Part shown: positions 1 through 9,376 of the stretch, in pieces
Numbering within the stretch: the stretch's first letter is position 1
Layout: the number at the start of each line of letters is the position of its first letter
NCBI RefSeq assembly: GCF_005871165.1
Contig: NZ_SWKP01000006.1
Location: 1-64,000, forward strand
Length of the DNA: 64,000 nt
Reading direction: 5' to 3'
Source of the DNA: Maricaulis alexandrii
Lineage (GTDB): Bacteria > Pseudomonadota > Alphaproteobacteria > Caulobacterales > Maricaulaceae
Notes under the pieces: model-generated
Database searches by the model: none
The model's input: the letters and a program-made list of their open reading frames with translations, nothing else
Told to the model about the DNA's origin: nothing
Position numbers and translations under genes: made by a program

Positions 1-682
1 TACCCCGGCCAGAGATCGAGAACACGTCTTCGATCGGCATCAGGAAGGGCTGGTCAACCGGACGATCCGGCGTCGGGATGTATTCGTCCACAGCCGCCAT
101 CAGCTCAAGGATCTTCTCCTTGCCGATGTTCTCGTCACGGCCTTCAACAGCCGCCAGCGCCGAACCCGCAACGATCGGAATATCGTCGCCCGGGAAGTCG
201 TAGGAGGACAGAAGTTCGCGAACTTCCATTTCCACCAGTTCCAGCAGCTCTTCGTCGTCGACCTGGTCAACCTTGTTCAGGAACACAACCAGGGCCGGAA
301 CGCCAACCTGGCGGGCCAGCAGGATGTGCTCACGCGTCTGCGGCATCGGGCCGTCAGCCGCGTTCACAACCAGGATCGCCCCGTCCATCTGCGCCGCACC
401 CGTGATCATGTTCTTCACATAGTCAGCATGGCCCGGGCAGTCGACGTGCGCGTAGTGACGGTTTTCCGTCTCATACTCAACGTGTGCCGTCGAGATCGTG
501 ATCCCGCGCGCCTTCTCTTCCGGCGCCGAGTCAATCTCGTCATAACCCTTGGCCGTGCCGCCACCGGCCTCAGCCAGAACCATCGTGATCGCAGCCGTCA
601 GCGTCGTCTTGCCGTGGTCAACGTGACCAATCGTGCCGATGTTCGCGTGCGGCTTGGTGCGCTCAAACTTTTCCTTCGCCAT
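1..682 (-). CDS. tuf: Elongation factor Tu, 3' end cut by window edge
   Basis: Translation GTPase that delivers aminoacyl-tRNA to the ribosome. The visible 227 residues start [16 protein letters not shown] and carry the G1 loop GHVDHGKTT (about residues 19-27), G3 DCPGH (about 81-85) and G4 NKVD (about 136-139), then enter domain 2. The full protein is about 395 residues, so the C-terminal 40% lies beyond base 1. The ATG at 680-682 is preceded by GAGGT. No fusA precedes it, so this is the stand-alone (tufB-type) copy, normally followed by tRNA-Trp, secE and nusG; that downstream part is outside the window and is an expectation only. Confidence 0.98.
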
Positions 683-1097
683 CGATCTTACCTCATGCGA
701 TGTCGATCTGGAGACGAATGGCCGATCGACTGGGTGGTGGTACACAAGGATGTCAAGACATCCCGAATTCAGTGCGCGCCTGATACACAAGGAATTGCCA
801 GCTAGGCAAGTCCGAATGCACACCCGGGCCGAAAGCAATTCCTTCGCAGGGCAGGATCGCCCGGGAAACGCACGCTTCTTCGTCAAATCTCGCGGGCGCC
901 CCTGGCCGGAATTCAGCAGCCCAAAGCCTCCCACCGCGGGTTGGCCAAGCTGTTCTGGCGATTGGGAAATCCACGACGAACCGAGATTTTTCGTGTAATT
1001 TCAAGTAAATAGAATTCACGAATGACGTGTTTTTGCTTGCCTCCTTATCGAGCCCCTGCCTAGGCTTTGCCGGACGAGAACACAGGAGGCGAAAACC
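683..1097. other. Divergent intergenic region between tuf and the ketosynthase operon
   Basis: A 415-base gap holding the leaders of two divergent transcripts. The open frames here are antisense or out-of-frame shadows with arginine-rich composition. On the minus strand a TTGACA lies at 751-756, about 70 bases before tuf, but the -10 at the expected distance is poor. The stretch 985-1035 is AT-rich and fits the upstream region of the plus-strand operon. No tRNA is seen here. Confidence 0.6.
1037..1065 (+). promoter_or_regulatory. Possible promoter of the five-gene ketosynthase operon
   Basis: TTGCCT at 1037-1042 and CTAGGC at 1060-1065 are 17 bases apart. This resembles the alphaproteobacterial housekeeping promoter only loosely. 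It lies 33 bases before the start codon at 1098. A strong ribosome binding site, AGGAGG at 1084-1089, follows. Confidence 0.3.
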
Positions 1098-2171
1098 ATG
1101 TCGCTCATCCGCCACATCGAACCCGCGATCGCAAACCCGATCACAACGGCACGGCTCAGCGGCCTCGCCCACCATCTTCCCGAACAGATTGTCGAATCGG
1201 CTGAACTGGATGCGCGCTACGAGAAACCCGCGGGTTGGCTGGAAGGTCTCTGCGGTGTCGCCGCGCGCAGTGTCGCCAGTGAGACGGACACGCAGGAAAG
1301 CATGGCCGTCAAAGCGGCCAGCGCCGCGATCGAAGACGCCGGGATTGATCCGGAGACGATCGATCTCCTGCTGTTTGGCGCAGCCGTCGGGCGCCAACCC
1401 ATCCCGGCGACGGCCCCCCTGATCAAACGCGAACTCGGCCTCTCTCACCTTGCTTTCCCGGCCTATGACGTCAACGCGACTTGCCTGAGTGCGCTGGTCG
1501 CCATGGACATGGCCCAGATGCAGATCGCACTGCAGCGGGCGCGCACCGTTCTGGTCGTGACATCCGAGATCGCATCCCGTGCCTTGCCCTGGGACACGGA
1601 TCCGAAAACGGCCGGCCTGTTCGGGGATGGTGCCGCCGCAATGGTCCTGACGACCACCAACGCGATGCCGCCCTCTTCGCCACAGCCCGGCTCCGGTGGG
1701 CTCGGCCTCCGCTTGCGGCATTTCCAGATGGAGACCTATGCCGAAGCCTATGACTGCTGTGCCCTCGCGTCCGGCGGCACCCGCTTTGACTTCCATCAGG
1801 ATCCCGGCGCGTTTGCCGACAACGCCTATTTCCGGATGGACGGCCCGGAACTCTTCGGCCTGACCGCCACCAAACTTCCCGACTTTCTGGATCGCTTGCT
1901 GGACGGGTTGGGCTGGACCCGACAGGACGTCGACCTGATCATTCCGCACCAGGCCTCCCCGCTCGCTCTCGCCCACATGGCCCGGCGCAGCGGCTTTGCG
2001 CGGGACCGTGTGTTCAACCAAGTATCGCGAACCGGCAACCTTGTCGCGGCCTCCCTGCCCGTCGCCCTCTCCTGCGCCCGTATGGAAGGCCGGATCCAGC
2101 CCGGCATGAAAATCCTGATGATCGGAACGTCGGCGGGTGTGTCGCTGGCAGGGGCCGGGCTGGAGAGCTAG
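1098..2171 (+). CDS. 3-oxoacyl-ACP synthase III (FabH/OleA-like thiolase)
   Basis: Thiolase-fold ketosynthase III, 357 residues. The family joins an acyl-CoA or acyl-ACP to a second acyl donor by Claisen condensation. The Cys-His-Asn triad of FabH/OleA is visible: C129 in DVNATCLSA, H284 in IIPHQAS and N314 in RTGNLVAAS. AGGAGG lies eight bases before the ATG. It opens an operon with an extended SDR, an MBL hydrolase, an adenylate-forming enzyme and a glycosyltransferase. That set recalls OleA plus OleD plus OleC rather than housekeeping fatty acid synthesis. Whether it is FabH-like (acetyl-CoA plus malonyl-ACP) or OleA-like (two fatty acyl chains) cannot be told from the sequence alone. Confidence 0.85.
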   Translation: MSLIRHIEPAIANPITTARLSGLAHHLPEQIVESAELDARYEKPAGWLEGLCGVAARSVASETDTQESMAVKAASAAIEDAGIDPETIDLLLFGAAVGRQPIPATAPLIKRELGLSHLAFPAYDVNATCLSALVAMDMAQMQIALQRARTVLVVTSEIASRALPWDTDPKTAGLFGDGAAAMVLTTTNAMPPSSPQPGSGGLGLRLRHFQMETYAEAYDCCALASGGTRFDFHQDPGAFADNAYFRMDGPELFGLTATKLPDFLDRLLDGLGWTRQDVDLIIPHQASPLALAHMARRSGFARDRVFNQVSRTGNLVAASLPVALSCARMEGRIQPGMKILMIGTSAGVSLAGAGLES

Positions 2172-2174
2172 TCC

Positions 2175-3143
2175 ATGCGCGTGCTTGTCACCGGAGCAAC
2201 CGGCTTCCTGGGCGGCCATCTGGTTCGCCGTCTCCACGCCGATGGACATTCGGTCCTGGCTCTTGGCCGTGATCCGGAACGCCTGGCGGCCCTTCGCCCT
2301 CATGCCGACCAGATCATCCGGCACGACCTGACCGGTCCCGACACTGTCAGGGACATGGAAGCCGATGCGGTCGTGCATGCCGCCGCCCTGTCGAGCCCGT
2401 GGGGACGATGGACGGATTTCGAACGCGCCAATGTCCACGGAACCCGCCGCATCATTGAGCTGGCCCGCACCAGCGGCGCTCGTCGTCTGGTGTTGGTCTC
2501 CTCACCCAGCGTCTATTTCCGGTTCGCGGACCAGGAAAACCTGCGCGAAGACAGCCCGCTTCCCAAACCCGTGAATGCCTATGCCGCGACCAAGCGTCAG
2601 GCCGAGCGCCTTGTGGAAGAGGCTACCGACCTCGACCCCATCATTCTGCGGCCCCGCGGCCTGTACGGGCGCGGCGACACCGCTTTGCTGCCCCGCCTGC
2701 TCCAAGCCGCCGCAAAAGGCCCGCTGCCCCTGATGCGCGACGGAGCCGCAGCCACGGACCTGACACATGTCGATGACGTCGCGAGTGCCATCCTGGCCGC
2801 GCTCCAGGCCCCGGCTGATCTTCCCCAACGCATTTTCAACATTTCCGGCGGTGTGGCCCTGCCCGTGCGCGACGTCGCAGAGGCCGCGGCCAGCCGGTGC
2901 GGGATCACGCCCCGCTGGCGTCGTTTGCCTGTGGGTCCGGTACTGGCGGCGGCTCGCTTGGCCGAAACAGCCTGCAGCCTTTTGCCCGGCCGGCCCGAAC
3001 CCCGCGTGACCGCCTATGGGGTCGGCCTGTTTGCTTACCGGCAGACCCTCGATCTGAGCGCCGCCCGGCAATGGCTGGACTGGGCACCACAGATCGATTT
3101 CCAGACCGGCCTCGATCTCACCTTCACGGCCGGGACCGCATGA
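2175..3143 (+). CDS. NAD(P)-dependent epimerase/dehydratase (extended SDR, OleD-like)
   Basis: Extended short-chain dehydrogenase of 322 residues. The N-terminal nucleotide loop TGATGFLGG (about residues 6-14), a serine pair in VLVSSPSVY and the catalytic Y136-x-x-x-K140 (YAATK) are all present. It starts three bases after the ketosynthase stop, so the two are co-transcribed. In head-to-head hydrocarbon (ole) pathways the SDR OleD reduces the beta-keto acid made by OleA; that role is plausible here but inferred. A sugar epimerase role is the main alternative, since the operon also encodes a glycosyltransferase. Confidence 0.85.
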   Translation: MRVLVTGATGFLGGHLVRRLHADGHSVLALGRDPERLAALRPHADQIIRHDLTGPDTVRDMEADAVVHAAALSSPWGRWTDFERANVHGTRRIIELARTSGARRLVLVSSPSVYFRFADQENLREDSPLPKPVNAYAATKRQAERLVEEATDLDPIILRPRGLYGRGDTALLPRLLQAAAKGPLPLMRDGAAATDLTHVDDVASAILAALQAPADLPQRIFNISGGVALPVRDVAEAAASRCGITPRWRRLPVGPVLAAARLAETACSLLPGRPEPRVTAYGVGLFAYRQTLDLSAARQWLDWAPQIDFQTGLDLTFTAGTA

Positions 3144-3943
3144 TCCGGGACCTGCAATTTCCCAACTCGGCCTGGGTCAGGGCACCGGAACGCTTTGTCC
3201 TGCGGGATGGGCGACTCGGTTTGATGAGCATTCCGGTCCGCTATGGGACGTTCACGCATCCCGAGGCCGGTCACTGCCTGATCGATACGGGCTATACCCG
3301 GCGTGTCACAAAAGGACGCCGGTCCCTCCCGCTCAACATCTACAATGCCGTGCTTCGGCCGCGGCTCACCCGGCATGCCCTGCCGGACGCAAAGCCGCTG
3401 GTCGACACGATCATTCTCACCCATTTGCACGCCGACCATGTCGCCGGCCTGAAGGATTATCCGCAGGCCCGCATCATCACGGACCGCGCCGCCCTCATGC
3501 ATTTTCTCGAACCGGGCGCCTCGCGGCTGCGCCATGGCGTGTTCCGGGAGTTGCTGCCGGAAGACATCATCGACCGGGTGACCGATTTTTCCGAGTTCGC
3601 CGCCATCGAATGCCCGTACGGGCTGGGTCCGGGACGCGACCTGTTGGGGGACGGATCCGTTGTCGCCCTTCCCCTGCCCGGACACATGCGAGGTCATACC
3701 GGGATATGCTTTCCGGACGAAACCCGTCCTCTTCTCTACGCCGTCGATGCCCAATGGCTGCACCGGGCGGTGATGGAGAACCGCCTGCCTGGCGCGCCAG
3801 CCCGCTGGATACTGGACGATGTCGAGGCCTGTCAGCGCAGCGCCGACCGTATCCGTCAGTTTTGCGAGGCCGGGGGGCGGGTCGTCTACTGCCATGACCC
3901 AGCATCCCCCGTTTCCACGGAAGAGGGCAACGGGACGGCATGA
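3140..3943 (+). CDS. MBL-fold metallo-hydrolase
   Basis: Metallo-beta-lactamase fold hydrolase, 267 residues. The ATG at 3140 overlaps the upstream stop (ATGA), which fixes the start; a longer frame running back to 2897 would overlap the SDR by about 245 bases and is rejected. The zinc motif H95-x-H97-x-D99-H100 (THLHADHVAGL) is intact. Further likely ligands are H182 (LPGHMRGHTG), D203 and H252. The family includes lactonases and thioesterases. In this operon it could release or hydrolyse an acyl or beta-lactone intermediate, in place of the alpha/beta hydrolase OleB of classical ole clusters. That substitution is an inference. Confidence 0.85.
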   Translation: MIRDLQFPNSAWVRAPERFVLRDGRLGLMSIPVRYGTFTHPEAGHCLIDTGYTRRVTKGRRSLPLNIYNAVLRPRLTRHALPDAKPLVDTIILTHLHADHVAGLKDYPQARIITDRAALMHFLEPGASRLRHGVFRELLPEDIIDRVTDFSEFAAIECPYGLGPGRDLLGDGSVVALPLPGHMRGHTGICFPDETRPLLYAVDAQWLHRAVMENRLPGAPARWILDDVEACQRSADRIRQFCEAGGRVVYCHDPASPVSTEEGNGTA

Positions 3944-5208
3944 CTTCCCTCTTCTCCCAGTTTCAGATTGCCGCCGCCTATCTCCGGACACGCTGGCTGA
4001 CAGCGCGCCTGAAGACACGCGCGGATGTGACCGCCTGGCAAACACGCCAACTGGAGCGCTTCCTGGCGGGACCTGTGGCCGCGGTGCCGGCCTATCGGGA
4101 GTTGGCCGGCCACCCTCTTGAAGACTTCCCCATCCAGGACAAGGCCCGGCTCATGGCGGATTTCGAGCGCTATAACCGTCTGGGCATGTCATCCGCCGAA
4201 GCCCGGGAGGCCTGGAAAAAGGATCAGTCGCCCAAAGGATATGCTGTCGGAGCGAGCACCGGAACCAGTGGCAATCGGGGCTTCTATGTCGTGTCCGACG
4301 CAGAACGCTATGCCTGGCTGGGCGTCATCCTGGGGCGGGGGCTCCCGGGCTTCTGGCGCGACCGTCTCAAGGTCGCGATCCTGCTGCCCGCCAATAGCCG
4401 TCTTTACGATGCCGCCAATGAGAGCCGGCGTCTGTCGCTTCGCTTCTTCGATCTGCATGAAGGCGTGGAGCGTCAGGCAGAGGCCGTTGAAGCCTGGCAG
4501 CCGGACGTGCTGGTCGCGCCGCCCAAAGTCCTGCGTCTGTTGAGCGACCGCCCGTCCGAACTCGCACCGCGGCATGTCTTTTCGGGAGCAGAAGTCCTGG
4601 ACCCGCTCGACCGCGAACGCATCGAGGCGCGGTTCGGTGTGACCGTCCGCGAGATCTACATGGCCACGGAAGGGCTGTTCGCGATCGCCTGTCCGCATGG
4701 GCGCCTGCACCTGCTGGAGGATCACATTGCGTTCGAGTGGGAGGACGATCCCGCTGGTGGCCGGCTCAAATCACCTTTGATCACGGACTTCACGCGGCGC
4801 ACGCAGGTCATGGTCCGCTACCGGATGAACGACCTGCTGGAACTGGACACCGGTCCCTGCCCGTGCGGCTCGCCGTTCACAGCTGTCCGCGCCATCGCCG
4901 GTCGGATGGATGATGTCCTAAGCCTGCCCGGCCCGGACGGGAATGTCTTCATCACGCCGGACATTCTGCGCAACACGATCATTGATGCCGACCCGGGCAT
5001 CGGCGATTTTCGCCTCGTCCAGACCAGCCCTGATCGCGTGATCATCACCCTGCCCCCGGAGAACGAATCCGCAGCCCTCAACGCAGGCCAAGCCTTGCAG
5101 GCCCTGTTTGACAGGCTGGGCGCCCGGGTTCAACTGGACAGCCGGATCGAACCCCTGCCGCCGCCTGACAGCCGCAAGCTCCGCCGGGTCATGCGGTTGA
5201 AGCCATGA
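3940..5208 (+). CDS. Adenylate-forming enzyme of the F390 synthetase/PaaK-like family
   Basis: A 422-residue member of the ANL-related family often annotated as F390 synthetase-related or putative adenylate-forming enzyme. The nucleotide-binding loop GASTGTSGNRG (about residues 105-115) and the downstream YMATEGLFA segment match PaaK-type acyl-adenylating enzymes. A Cys pair in CPCGSPF also resembles PaaK-like proteins. It overlaps the upstream gene by ATGA. Such enzymes activate carboxylates as acyl-AMP; OleC, which has the same fold class, converts beta-hydroxy acids to beta-lactones. The substrate is unknown. The rarity of this subfamily makes it a good marker for finding related operons. 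Confidence 0.8.
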   Translation: MTSLFSQFQIAAAYLRTRWLTARLKTRADVTAWQTRQLERFLAGPVAAVPAYRELAGHPLEDFPIQDKARLMADFERYNRLGMSSAEAREAWKKDQSPKGYAVGASTGTSGNRGFYVVSDAERYAWLGVILGRGLPGFWRDRLKVAILLPANSRLYDAANESRRLSLRFFDLHEGVERQAEAVEAWQPDVLVAPPKVLRLLSDRPSELAPRHVFSGAEVLDPLDRERIEARFGVTVREIYMATEGLFAIACPHGRLHLLEDHIAFEWEDDPAGGRLKSPLITDFTRRTQVMVRYRMNDLLELDTGPCPCGSPFTAVRAIAGRMDDVLSLPGPDGNVFITPDILRNTIIDADPGIGDFRLVQTSPDRVIITLPPENESAALNAGQALQALFDRLGARVQLDSRIEPLPPPDSRKLRRVMRLKP

Positions 5209-6449
5209 AGATCTCGATCCAGACCCTTGGCACGCTCGGCGATGTCCTGCCCTTCCTCACGCTGGCCCAAGCCCTCCAGGACCGCGGACACACCGTCACT
5301 GTCCTGGCTCCGCGCGATCACACCGAACGAATCCGCGAATCCGGTGTCGAGCCTGCCGCACCGCCGGACTTCTCCGTCGCCGGCTGGATGCGCGAGGCGG
5401 AACAGCGTGGAACCCTGACCGGTCCGTTTGCCTTCTTCCGTGACTGGCCGCGCATGATCCGCCCGCATGTGGAGGACGTTCTGGAACGCAGCCTTGAGGC
5501 CGCCGAAGGCGCCGATCTTGTCCTGGCCAATCCGATTGCCATGCCGGCCCGGATCGCTGCGGAGCATTGGCAGACCCCCTTTGCCCTGATGGCGCTGCAA
5601 CCGGTCATCGTCCCGACGCGCGCCCTGCCCTGCGCCATGATTGCCCGGCGGGCCCATTCCGGGTGGATGAACAGGGCCAGCTATCTGGCGGTGACTGCCA
5701 GTCTCGCGGCCTTGGGGCTGGCGGTCCGCCAGCACCGGGCCCGGTTGGTCAGACCACCCCGCGCCGCCTTCTGGAAACTGGACCGGCATCTCGGCCGGCC
5801 TCTGCCCAGGATCACCGCCCTCCCCGCCGTTTTCGATGTCCAGCAGCCCAGGGATACGCGGGATGACACATACTGGGTCGACTACCCGCCGCTGGCCTCG
5901 AGGGACAGGAGCCTGTCGGCTGACCTGACGCGTTTTCTGAAAGCCGGGCCGCCTCCAGTCCATCTGGGCCTGGGCTCCATGCCGCCGGACGAGCTCGCGG
6001 ACGACCTGCCGGTCTGGTTGTCCCGGATCGAGGCCTCAGGGCACAGGGCCCTGATTTCGCGGTCCCTCGCTGATTGTCTCCGCACCATTCCGGACACGTG
6101 CCATGTCTATGACGACGCGCCGCACGATGTCCTGTTTCCGCATTGCCGGCTGGTCATTCATCATGGCGGCGCGGGTACCCTGGATACGGCGGCCCGGGCC
6201 GGTGTCCCGCAACTCATTCTGCCGCAGGTCGTGGATCAGTTCTGGAATGCCTCTCGATTGGCGCAGGTCGGCCTGACTCCCCCTCCCATGTCCGGAAAAT
6301 CGACACCCAAACAGATAGATGACTTGCTCACCCAGGCTTTGGCAGCGCCAGCGCGGACCAAGGCGCAGAGTGTGGCACTTGAGCTGGAAAACCGGCAGCC
6401 TTTCAGCGGTACGGTCGACCTGATCGAGTCACTCGCCCAGACGCGCTGA
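5205..6449 (+). CDS. Glycosyltransferase family 1 (UGT/MGT-like)
   Basis: GT-B fold glycosyltransferase, 414 residues, of the nucleotide-sugar dependent family that modifies small lipophilic acceptors (macrolides, sterols, carotenoids, phenolics). The N-terminus has the GTLGDVLPFLTLAQAL acceptor-domain start. The C-terminal donor loop HHGGAGTLDTAARAGVP begins near residue 318, followed by DQFWNA, the usual nucleotide-sugar box. It overlaps the upstream stop by ATGA and closes the operon. Its presence suggests that the lipid product of the operon is glycosylated. The last 47 bases overlap the convergent DedA gene. Confidence 0.85.
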   Translation: MKISIQTLGTLGDVLPFLTLAQALQDRGHTVTVLAPRDHTERIRESGVEPAAPPDFSVAGWMREAEQRGTLTGPFAFFRDWPRMIRPHVEDVLERSLEAAEGADLVLANPIAMPARIAAEHWQTPFALMALQPVIVPTRALPCAMIARRAHSGWMNRASYLAVTASLAALGLAVRQHRARLVRPPRAAFWKLDRHLGRPLPRITALPAVFDVQQPRDTRDDTYWVDYPPLASRDRSLSADLTRFLKAGPPPVHLGLGSMPPDELADDLPVWLSRIEASGHRALISRSLADCLRTIPDTCHVYDDAPHDVLFPHCRLVIHHGGAGTLDTAARAGVPQLILPQVVDQFWNASRLAQVGLTPPPMSGKSTPKQIDDLLTQALAAPARTKAQSVALELENRQPFSGTVDLIESLAQTR

Positions 6450-7041
6450 CGTGTCGCCACAGCCAGATGCCGGCCAACCCAAGCAGATTGGCTCCGATCA
6501 GCAAGGACAGAGCATGCGCTTGCACCCAATGGCCCAGATCGCCGCCCGCGAGCGCGACACCGGCGGCCAGCAACCAGCCATACAGGATGAATTGCCCAAC
6601 CCCGATCACCACGCCCAGGACCGACCCCAGACTGAAGCGCAACCAGGACACATCCAGGCTGCCAGCCAGGGTTGGCGTGATCCAGGCCACCGGGCCGAGC
6701 AGGCGGCTGACCGCGACGAACAGGATGAGCCGGGACTGCAAGCCCTGGCGGGCGCGGCGATAGGCCCGGCGTCGGCCGGACCGCGCCCATACCAGTCTTT
6801 TCAAGGGTGTGGCGGCCCGTTGACCGATCCAGAACCCGGTCTGATCCGCCAGGAGCGCTCCAACCAACACACTGATGGCGGGCCAGACAGAGCCGGTCTC
6901 ATGCAAGAGATGGCCGGCCATCAAAAAGAAGGGTTCGCCCAAGATGAACAGGCAGGGCCCGGGCAAGGCGTCCAGAAACGCCCCGCCGAACAGGATCAGC
7001 AGGAGCCAGGCGTCCAGAGCAGTCTCGGCCAAACTCGTCAT
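6403..7041 (-). CDS. DedA family membrane protein (VTT/SNARE-associated domain)
   Basis: Integral inner-membrane protein of 212 residues with four to five hydrophobic segments. The DedA features are the FLDALPGPCLFILGEPFFLMAG stretch and the later QSRLILFVAVSRLLGP (the FxR-G/P region). DedA proteins are linked to lipid flipping, proton motive force and envelope homeostasis. An ATG at 7039-7041 is preferred to one 26 residues upstream, because the added residues are not hydrophobic and look unlike family N-termini; this is uncertain. It runs convergent to the glycosyltransferase with a 47-base tail overlap, so it is not part of that operon but may share its lipid context. Confidence 0.75.
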   Translation of the reverse strand: MTSLAETALDAWLLLILFGGAFLDALPGPCLFILGEPFFLMAGHLLHETGSVWPAISVLVGALLADQTGFWIGQRAATPLKRLVWARSGRRRAYRRARQGLQSRLILFVAVSRLLGPVAWITPTLAGSLDVSWLRFSLGSVLGVVIGVGQFILYGWLLAAGVALAGGDLGHWVQAHALSLLIGANLLGLAGIWLWRHVSASGRVTRSGRPYR

Positions 7042-7142
7042 TTCCCGAGCATAGGCGGCGCCATCCGACAGCGATACGTCAAACGGATTCACGCACCGCG
7101 TCGGCGGGCTCATTCTCAAGGATCAGATTTCGAGGAAAGAAT

Positions 7143-7216
7143 TGGAGCGGGTAGCGGGAATCGAACCCGCATCCTCAGCTTGGAAGGCTGCTGCACTACC
7201 ATTGTGCTATACCCGC
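7143..7216 (-). tRNA. tRNA-Gly (anticodon UCC)
   Basis: A full cloverleaf of 74 bases. The 5' arm GCGGGTA pairs with TACCCGC, the T loop is GGTTCGATTCC and CCA is encoded. The anticodon loop CTTCCAA reads GGA. It stands 114 bases downstream of tRNA-Tyr on the same strand, probably in one transcript. Confidence 0.97.
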
Positions 7217-7330
7217 CCGAAAGAGCGTCCCCGGATCAGGGAGAGATGGTGTTTAGCCAATTCAATCGGAAGCGTCGAGAGGGCTGTGCGGCGGCCTCAT
7301 CCGGCCAAACCAAGCCCGACGGGCGAAGGA

Positions 7331-8383: not shown

Positions 8384-9376
8384 TTAGTCCGTGCTGCCAA
8401 CCCGAAGGATTGAGCGGCCATTGCGGCGCCAGTCGATATTGCCTTCAACTTCGCGGATATCGACATCTCCACCGCCGCTTTCGCGAACGGTGACATTCAC
8501 GGCCGTGCCGCGGAAAGCGATGTCTCCGGATCCATTGATGTAGGCCTCGAAGGGTTCGGCGCGTCCACCGCGGACGAGCACGTCACCAGAGCCTGAAATC
8601 GAGGTGCGGAAGCCACCATTCACAGCGGCCGCCTCGACATCGCCGGAGCCGGAAATATCGATGTCCAGACCGGCCAGGCGGCCCAGTTCGACATCGCCGG
8701 ACCCGTTGATATCGATCTCGGTACCGCCGCCGACATCGCCCGCTTCGATATCGCCGGAACCATTGATATCGATCGTGGCATCCCCGGCAATATCGCCCGC
8801 TTCAATGTCACCGGACCCGTTCACATTGAGGACCGCATTGCCGCCAATCCCGTCCAGATCGATATCGCCGGAGCCATTGATGCGGATGCGGGCATCCCCG
8901 GCCACCTCGCCGGCAGAGAAATGACCGCAGGAATTCATCGACAGGTCCATCGCGCCGAGATCCCCGGCCGTGCCGACGAAGGCACTGTCATCAATGGAGA
9001 AATTCACCGTGTCCGGTGCCGTGATGATGAGCACAGGATACTCATTGATCGAGCGGGAATTGCGCCAGCGGCCAATGAAGACTTCATCATCCCGGGTGCG
9101 GCAATTGAGATTGCGGACGCGCTGTCCCCCATCAATGGCGACACCGGAACCGGCGGGTGACCAGGTCGGGTCGTCCGCGGCATCCCCCGGATTTTGCACC
9201 TCGACCTGAATGCCCGATCCGCCGGTGCGAACCTCCACCCGGCCAATGAAATTCTCGATGCGGACCGTGTCGCCGGCATAATTGCTCGTGTCGGCCGGCT
9301 GCGCCTGGGCGGTCATCGCCAGCGCGCCGATACCGGCCAGGGTCACCAGTCCACCGGTGATCAGTTTGACAGTCAT
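8384..9376 (-). CDS. Exported GIN-domain (DUF2807) repeat protein
   Basis: A 330-residue protein with a signal peptide (hydrophobic to about residue 22, cleavage likely after MTAQA). The body is a head-GIN/DUF2807 domain with a 19-residue repeat carrying the core GSGD: NGSGDI, NGSGDV, SGSGDV and so on, at least eight copies from about residue 165 to 290. Alternating small and beta-branched residues with regular G-S-G-D turns predict a right-handed parallel beta-helix. These proteins are exported and are sometimes called adhesin heads, though function is unproven. GGAGGG sits a few bases before the ATG. It converges with rlmB, 28 bases apart. Confidence 0.8.
   Translation of the reverse strand: MTVKLITGGLVTLAGIGALAMTAQAQPADTSNYAGDTVRIENFIGRVEVRTGGSGIQVEVQNPGDAADDPTWSPAGSGVAIDGGQRVRNLNCRTRDDEVFIGRWRNSRSINEYPVLIITAPDTVNFSIDDSAFVGTAGDLGAMDLSMNSCGHFSAGEVAGDARIRINGSGDIDLDGIGGNAVLNVNGSGDIEAGDIAGDATIDINGSGDIEAGDVGGGTEIDINGSGDVELGRLAGLDIDISGSGDVEAAAVNGGFRTSISGSGDVLVRGGRAEPFEAYINGSGDIAFRGTAVNVTVRESGGGDVDIREVEGNIDWRRNGRSILRVGSTD
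8580..8900 (-). repeat. Tandem 57-base coding repeat (GSGD units)
   Basis: Within the GIN-domain gene the sequence recurs with a period of about 57 bases, built around the core ATCGCCGGA followed by an AACCATTGAT-like segment. Copies are imperfect at DNA level but strict in protein as G-S-G-D. It is a protein repeat, not a CRISPR or intergenic element. Confidence 0.7.

Follow-up and report, generated by a model that had tools for sequence, protein, structure and literature searches.

Among the closest described counterparts of the locus reported here is the OleABCD pathway, in which a ketosynthase III (KS), an extended, OleD-type short-chain dehydrogenase/reductase (SDR) and an adenylating enzyme are likewise brought together in one cluster; OleC is a canonical AMP-binding enzyme. 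Ketosynthases of another kind, the interconnecting enzymes MxnB and CorB, act in polyketide synthase (PKS) clusters, where they release an alpha-pyrone, as described in the passages of PMC5724707 that deal with them. The base residue is a glutamate in OleA (E117) and PpyS (E105), and MxnB and CorB both carry V94 at that place, according to the part of PMC4578411 that gives these residues. Here we analyse an operon of Maricaulis alexandrii found in positions 1-64000 of contig C6, which start at contig base 1 of a 3.35-Mb genome (this whole stretch of 64,000 nucleotides is referred to as the window). The operon encodes a KS, an extended SDR, a metallo-beta-lactamase (MBL) hydrolase, a PaaK/F390-type ligase and a glycosyltransferase (GT) (Table 1). 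It has the three activities named above in common with the OleABCD pathway, but its KS lacks the Glu base, its ligase is of the PaaK type, no OleB was found, and an MBL, a GT and a VTT-domain (DedA-like) membrane protein are added.

All five plus-strand genes are open, follow the order KS-SDR-MBL-ligase-GT and match their own families. The start codons of the MBL, ligase and GT genes each lie 4 bases ahead of the end of the preceding stop (three ATGA overlaps), and the KS and SDR genes are separated by three bases (2172-2174). The original prediction, made from the sequence, had described this layout exactly, coordinates included, but took the five genes to be the whole set and overlooked a sixth, convergent gene for the VTT protein at 6403-7119 on the minus strand. 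We hold with middling confidence that the operon and the VTT gene together form a six-gene module for the synthesis and transport of a glycolipid. More tentatively, the first four genes might be the common core behind a so far undescribed class of membrane lipids in bacteria. It would span three or more phyla and roughly 12% of complete E. coli genomes and combine one acyl backbone with lineage-specific, interchangeable heads (a sugar with a dedicated VTT translocase, a homoserine-type head, sulfate, an amino-acid type head, or a phosphatase/hydroxylase set).

The four-gene core is conserved well beyond the window. With a threshold of E 1e-20, ligases of the TIGR02304 type were found in 45 of the 398 order genomes and in 14 of 398 phylum genomes (the window's own counted in each), and in the draw from the class 55 of 385 genomes matched the ligase at E 1e-3, only the window's own lying above the TIGR02304 cut-off. 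Neighbourhoods were collected for 131 loci including the window, drawn from 41 of the 44 order matches besides the window (three with 92-105 bits were omitted), nine of the stronger class and phylum matches (those of 108 bits or less were omitted) and the best 80 of 559 encoded relatives; 24 duplicates with an identical ligase stretch were dropped, leaving 107 distinct loci. A KS was present in 99 of these, an SDR in 102, an MBL in 101 and all four core genes in 98. The core is mostly collinear (KS-SDR-MBL-ligase), and in a subset MBL-SDR-KS lie on the other strand, some 2-6 kb beyond the ligase. All five genes occur together in 17 loci, the window included, so that the expected recurrence of the set elsewhere was borne out.

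The flanks of the ligase genes give the same picture. Within 1.5 kb of 37 TIGR02304-like ligases (at least 240 bits, the window's included), an MBL homologue was present in 30 and an SDR homologue in 30, and both were present in all three loci whose ligases scored 150-190 bits. In contrast, the 1.5-kb control flanks held no MBL, SDR or GT homologue for any of 32 weaker PaaK-like ligases or of eight canonical AMP-binding genes of the host, a control that does not speak to the KS, which lies beyond such short flanks. The grouping of the core genes is not due to chance.

We also inspected 13 of the 84 plasmid-search records with a ligase match. The four core genes are contiguous and in order in eight records (Shinella, Rhizobium, two Paracoccus, Ketogulonicigenium, Paraburkholderia, Pseudomonas sp. 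FeN3W and E. coli), and two Bacillota plasmids (L217 and L219) have the core with an ATP-grasp gene inserted after the KS, their KSs passing the PRK07204 cut-off (445 and 425 against 402). An ORF (open reading frame) search of an unannotated Fusobacterium record (L223) yielded SDR-MBL followed by ligase-KS, that is, all four genes in altered order. On the chromosome of E. coli ABU 83972 (L235, 2501-9382), the core is part of a seven-gene set with a PAP2 protein, a fatty-acid hydroxylase and a desaturase, located between narI and two tRNA-Tyr genes; this set was matched in 672 of 5426 complete E. coli genomes, 671 of them over at least 80% of its length. The core recurs in Pseudomonadota, Bacillota and Fusobacteriota. 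On the megaplasmid pBASL58 of Pseudomonas sp. Leaf58 (L218), the KS, SDR and MBL-ligase genes are scattered over 10 kb with other, mostly hypothetical genes between them, and on the P. amygdali megaplasmid pMPPla107 (L221) the ligase is the only core gene annotated within 9 kb, among mostly hypothetical neighbours.

The window KS matches Pfam PF08541 (80 bits) and PF08545 (63 bits). Among NCBIfam models PRK07204 ranks first (253 bits, cut-off 402), with FabH-type models next and PRK09258 at 113 bits (cut-off 285), and no cut-off is reached; its score against the FabH model TIGR00747 is 176 bits (cut-off 292). Its best relatives in the PDB are MxnB (161 bits) and CorB (151 bits), then FabH, with the OleA entry 3s23 (named as such in a passage of PMC5724707) within a 56-bit group. 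Homologues below the score threshold were excluded from all residue counts, which leaves 99 KS, 96 SDR, 100 MBL and 105 ligase rows from the 107 loci. The Cys-His-Asn triad (C129/H284/N314), which had been predicted to be intact, is unchanged in 99 of 99 aligned homologues, while the column of the OleA catalytic Glu holds Ile102 in the window KS and Ile, Leu or Val in the homologues (74, 23 and 2, respectively), with Glu in none. The window KS thus combines the triad with the lack of the OleA/PpyS Glu, as MxnB and CorB do, and these also have a hydrophobic residue at that position and lie near the core rows in the KS tree; unlike in their PKS clusters, a reductase, a hydrolase and a ligase follow here. 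The absence of the Glu base suggests that the core KSs depend on a nucleophile that is already activated (malonyl- or beta-ketoacyl-).

In the KS tree (64 rows), the six PRK09258 (OleA) rows come together with full support and the seven FabH rows with 86/80. All 47 core KSs, the window's included, fall outside both groups, the root being uncertain. The core KSs are not one clade, since MxnB and CorB are placed among the more distant core rows. Of the seven FabH rows, three were compared with the FabH model, and the FabH copy on contig C1 of the host genome exceeded its cut-off (404 against 292). PRK09258 was taken as the OleA model because a protein that passes its cut-off (L269, 527 bits) has as PDB relatives at E 1e-30 only a set that includes 3s23; the cut-off was passed in 11 of 299 phylum genomes, from which six rows entered the tree, and in none of eight genomes searched (the host and seven other cluster-bearing ones). 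A housekeeping FabH identity of the KS was rejected, in line with the original prediction, on the TIGR00747 score and the separate grouping of the FabH rows. Two further KS III genes of the host genome, both of the PRK07515 family, lie near each other on contig C7, apart from the operon (at about 5342 and 8306, L004 and L003; 584 and 490 against a cut-off of 304).

The SDR matches Pfam PF01370 (157 bits), and its Rossmann glycines, R32, S109, Y136 and K140 are kept in 97-99% of the rows. Its best NCBIfam model is OleD (NF042422), at 172 bits far under the cut-off of 580. The MBL matches Pfam PF00753 (38 bits), and its seven zinc ligands (HxHxDH...H...D...H di-zinc site) are unchanged in 100 of 100 rows. 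With its clan and this zinc set it resembles the AHL (N-acyl-homoserine lactone) lactonases AiiA, AttM and AhlX and 4-pyridoxolactonase, and its predicted structure (predicted local distance difference test, pLDDT, 94.3) lies nearest to AhlX and 4-pyridoxolactonase, the top Foldseek matches being AhlX (9kho/9khq, query TM ~0.74). It scores far under the AHL-lactonase equivalogs, however, with 51 bits against AttM (cut-off 390) and 26.5 against AiiA (cut-off 375). In AiiA a tyrosine follows the metal-bridging Asp; the window protein has Trp206 in place of this Tyr of the AHL lactonases, and the Trp is found in all 100 rows.

The ligase lies below the cut-off of the canonical AMP-binding family (PF00501, 18.1 against 29.9) and above that of TIGR02304, "F390 synthetase-related" (275.2 against 251.9). 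Its predicted structure (pLDDT 94.2) is nearest to PaaK1 (2y27) and to other AMP ligases of the PaaK family, such as 6siw and AjiA1. With this family (PaaK1, 6siw/NatL2, AjiA1, BagE/FevW) it shares the fold and the adenylation motifs, but it is only ~20% identical to the solved members. C251, H257, C307 and C309 are unchanged in the 105 rows and K413 is kept in 99%.

What varies around the core is the set of genes that accompany it. Among the 98 full-core loci, a GT was found in 17, a DUF3419 (BtaA-like) protein in 13, ATP-grasp in 53, GNAT in 53 and a Rieske protein in 64; the GT co-occurs with none of the other four, and the BtaA-like protein never with ATP-grasp. DUF3419 (BtaA-type) and Rieske genes stand in the place of the GT in L139, L144-L147, L149, L150, L157 and L202. 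Maricaulis maris DSM 4734 (L138) carries the GT-type set, and among Hyphomonas strains both GT-type and DUF3419-type clusters occur. A sulfotransferase gene directly follows the ligase in Ruegeria haliotis (L207) and lies divergently upstream of the core in two Paracoccus records and one Ketogulonicigenium record, and PAP2 and fatty-acid hydroxylase genes follow the core in L130 and in E. coli (L220), the latter also with a desaturase. Upstream of the Paracoccus alcaliphilus core (L225, 1-2754), past a sulfotransferase and a TetR gene, there are nonribosomal peptide synthetase (NRPS), phosphopantetheine-binding and AMP-binding genes at a distance of about 2.5 kb. Two ATP-grasp partners have PRK06849 ("hypothetical protein") as best NCBIfam model (338 and 364, cut-off 406), and the only NCBIfam match of the E. 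coli hydroxylase is OlsE, an ornithine-lipid hydroxylase (66 against a cut-off of 475).

The counts of these tailoring genes are lower bounds, as suggested by the few free ORFs in neighbour clusters 5, 8, 9, 10, 13, 14, 16-20 and 22, which were excluded as shadow ORFs (82-100% of the ORFs per cluster lie more than half inside a named gene). In a quick concatenated tree (1 of the 98 loci lost, L136 labelled as GT by hand), the four head labels need 9 changes against 32 when shuffled, and the BtaA-like label alone needs 4, so that lineage accounts for much of the distribution, yet exchange probably occurred more than once. BtaA acts on diacylglycerol to give diacylglycerol-O-homoserine, as stated in the relevant passage of PMC10685587. 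Since GTs and sulfotransferases act on hydroxyls, a lipid hydroxyl would be the simplest common acceptor. The window itself resembles a betaine-lipid (BtaA) system only through its relatives, the DUF3419 gene being absent from it.

The GT matches Pfam PF06722 (67 bits) and has the motif HHGGAGT...DQ, which we take to be the nucleotide-sugar motif; it resembles GtfB/GtfA and, more weakly, sterol glucosyltransferases. The protein encoded by the convergent gene scores 37.8 bits against the VTT domain (PF09335, cut-off 33.9), and its homologue in L152 scores 49.5. Across the 107 distinct loci, the VTT profile is found in 17 of 17 GT loci and in none of the 90 others (L136, a GT locus cut by a contig end, among these), and in all 17 the VTT and GT genes overlap tail to tail by 29-59 bases. 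Within the genus, the VTT gene is present in 5 of 17 genomes, exactly the five that carry the GT-type operon, and was found neither in the two genomes with a DUF3419-type cluster nor in the ten without a TIGR02304 match. In the concatenated tree all GT loci fall into a single clade (18 rows, 96), so that the pairing reflects strict co-retention after probably one assembly, and not repeated independent pairing. DedA-family proteins are described as candidate translocases of the lipid carrier undecaprenyl phosphate (C55-P) in the relevant part of PMC9876793. Two other Maricaulis loci, L144 and L146 (genomes G914 and G814), have the Rieske/DUF3419-type cluster instead and no VTT gene, and the L144 KS falls outside the Maricaulis group of the window KS in the tree.

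For the glycolipid module we propose the following sequence of steps. The KS would load an acyl group from acyl-CoA or acyl-ACP on Cys129 and couple it to a nucleophile, a malonyl- or beta-ketoacyl-thioester, that would have to be pre-activated because the OleA/PpyS Glu base is missing. The SDR, probably with NADPH, would turn the 3-keto group into a 3-hydroxyl, and the di-zinc MBL would cleave the thioester (or a lactone), releasing a hydroxy acid. This acid may then be adenylated by the PaaK-type ligase and linked to an acceptor through an ester, amide or CoA thioester bond. The GT would add a sugar from a housekeeping nucleotide sugar onto a hydroxyl of the lipid, and the VTT/DedA-like protein would carry the glycolipid across the inner membrane. 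In place of the GT, relatives might use a BtaA-like aminocarboxypropyl transferase, a sulfotransferase or an ATP-grasp/GNAT/Rieske set at this step, so that an identical acyl core would receive a different polar head. A glycosylated lipid, as the original prediction had suggested, stands as the probable product, whereas its derivation from Ole enzymes does not.

We would like to note several points that weigh against this proposal. The six steps are drawn from sequence comparison and models and their product is putative, a thioester and a lactone both being candidate substrates of the MBL. None of the five tailoring families is seen in 11 of the 98 full-core loci (one being L136), a few GNAT or ATP-grasp genes that had been missed show up among the shadow ORFs (L174, L206), and the exclusivity of the heads is not phylogenetically independent, some loci also being truncated by contig ends. 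The label "BtaA-like" stands for Pfam DUF3419 alone, the one example tested having no PDB relative at E 0.01 and no NCBIfam match. The GT-VTT pairing may be a single acquisition kept together with the help of the overlapping gene ends, and one of the five VTT copies in the genus (G909) has one stop inside the match. Finally, the GT is as similar to antibiotic GTs (GtfB; the rifamycin-inactivating Rgt) as to sterol glucosyltransferases, or more so, which makes a diffusible metabolite possible, and the NRPS, carrier-protein and AMP-binding genes lie within about 2.5 kb of the Paracoccus alcaliphilus core.

The most serious rival, which we nevertheless consider unlikely, is indeed a secreted secondary metabolite, a signal or antibiotic, in which an interconnecting KS of the MxnB/CorB kind would yield an alpha-pyrone-, butenolide- or amide-like molecule that is glycosylated for export or self-protection. 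MxnB and CorB as the nearest solved relatives of the KS, placed among the more distant core rows, the GT's likeness to antibiotic GTs, the clan of the MBL, the neighbouring NRPS and carrier-protein genes in P. alcaliphilus and the ATP-grasp, GNAT and Rieske partners, which would be typical of natural-product clusters, are all consistent with such a product. However, no PKS, NRPS, carrier protein or efflux pump was found among the ten representative neighbours scanned (most other neighbour clusters being outside that scan), the alternative partners of the core are lipid enzymes (PAP2, fatty-acid hydroxylase, desaturase, BtaA-like), and the GT is accompanied by a VTT membrane protein.

An improbable alternative is that the operon modifies the fatty-acid or 3-hydroxy-acid pool, in which case the KS and SDR would supply lipid A or ornithine-type lipids with 3-hydroxyacyl groups, while the GT and VTT protein would serve an unrelated acceptor, such as undecaprenyl phosphate. 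The match of the E. coli hydroxylase to OlsE and the candidate role of DedA proteins in C55-P translocation would fit this, but the 4-base overlap of the GT start with the ligase gene links the GT to the core, and the core brings its own hydrolase and ligase, which would be needless for plain 3-hydroxyacyl-ACP supply. GT1-type enzymes are not known to use polyprenyl-phosphate acceptors, which also counts against it.

An Ole-type pathway to an olefin or beta-lactone with the MBL in place of OleB is very improbable, for although OleD is the best NCBIfam model of the SDR and a KS, an SDR and an adenylating enzyme make up the OleA/D/C activity set, the KS has Ile for Glu and lies outside the OleA rows, the OleD and PRK09258 cut-offs are far off, the ligase is under the PF00501 cut-off with PaaK-family enzymes as its nearest folds, and no OleB-type alpha/beta-hydrolase domain was detected in the six proteins scanned. 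OleA/OleD/OleC membership, as originally predicted, was rejected on these residue, tree and model scores; the KS, SDR and ligase results thereby make the picture of an MBL that replaced OleB a wrong one, the core being separate and widespread and the GT one of several alternative tailoring enzymes.

The enzyme families are known, and the NCBIfam models PRK07204 ("beta-ketoacyl-ACP synthase III"), TIGR02304 and PRK06849 cover parts of the same cluster under uninformative names that carry no pathway; full-text searches of the open literature, which leave most subscription papers outside, found no paper describing the cluster and no pathway assignment, in agreement with the original prediction. 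The sections of PMC3091784 that were retrieved do not treat the locus. "F390 synthetase" is named in the table sections of papers as an entry in a strain-specific gene list and in a list of plant-pathogen transposon mutants, and elsewhere, in one passage, as a protein changed during phenol degradation; in a passage of PMC2649909, an acyl-ligase is guessed to act in glycerol attachment of ladderane lipids. The four-gene set is not described in the retrieved passages of this F390-synthetase literature. If the lipid reading holds, the product would be a membrane component not yet listed in lipid catalogues, and its head-group enzymes would be interchangeable cassettes; the GT-VTT pair would give a defined candidate substrate for a protein of the DedA family. 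The system is reachable in culturable Maricaulis and Hyphomonas.

The six-gene unit sits between tuf and a tRNA-Gly gene (Table 1), and a tuf ORF is close by in five other loci. The G+C content of the operon (65.7%, against 63.5% for the whole window) gives no mark of foreign origin.

Table 1. Features of the operon and its borders, in window coordinates.
Feature	Position	Strand	Remarks
EF-Tu (tuf) gene, cut by contig start	1..682	-	Left border of island, outside the system; ORF falls in one cluster with those from five other loci, L088 among them (GTP_EFTU domains)
AGGAGG, likely ribosome-binding site	1084..1089	+	8 bases ahead of KS start codon; read directly
Ketosynthase III (KS), 357 amino acids	1098..2171	+	Triad C129/H284/N314; Ile102 at OleA Glu position
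Extended SDR, OleD-like ketoreductase, 322 amino acids	2175..3143	+	G7/G10/G13 motif, R32, S109, Y136, K140 conserved
MBL hydrolase, 267 amino acids	3140..3943	+	Di-zinc site H95-H97-D99-H100-H182-D203-H252 complete; AHL-lactonase clan
PaaK/F390-type adenylating ligase (TIGR02304), 422 amino acids	3940..5208	+	K413, C251, H257, C307, C309 conserved
GT1-type glycosyltransferase, 414 amino acids	5205..6449	+	Motif HHGGAGT...DQ
VTT-domain (DedA-like) membrane protein	6403..7119	-	Likely start 7041; overlaps GT 3' end by 47 bases; Pfam PF09335
tRNA-Gly(TCC)	7143..7216	-	Right border of island

A promoter scan of 680-7300 found no sigma-70-like site, and the repeats upstream of the operon are short two-copy matches. 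A phage or defence origin of the operon was rejected: the KS and ligase, the two proteins scanned against PHROGs, had no match, a PADLOC scan of the five operon proteins returned only LmuA against the MBL (weak, 17.7 bits) and nothing for the other four, and the ligase matched one phage record at 25% identity. Further along the window, at 8384-9376 on the minus strand, lies an ORF rich in imperfect repeats of the type NGSGDIEAGDIAGDA, which would encode a repetitive, beta-structure-like protein.

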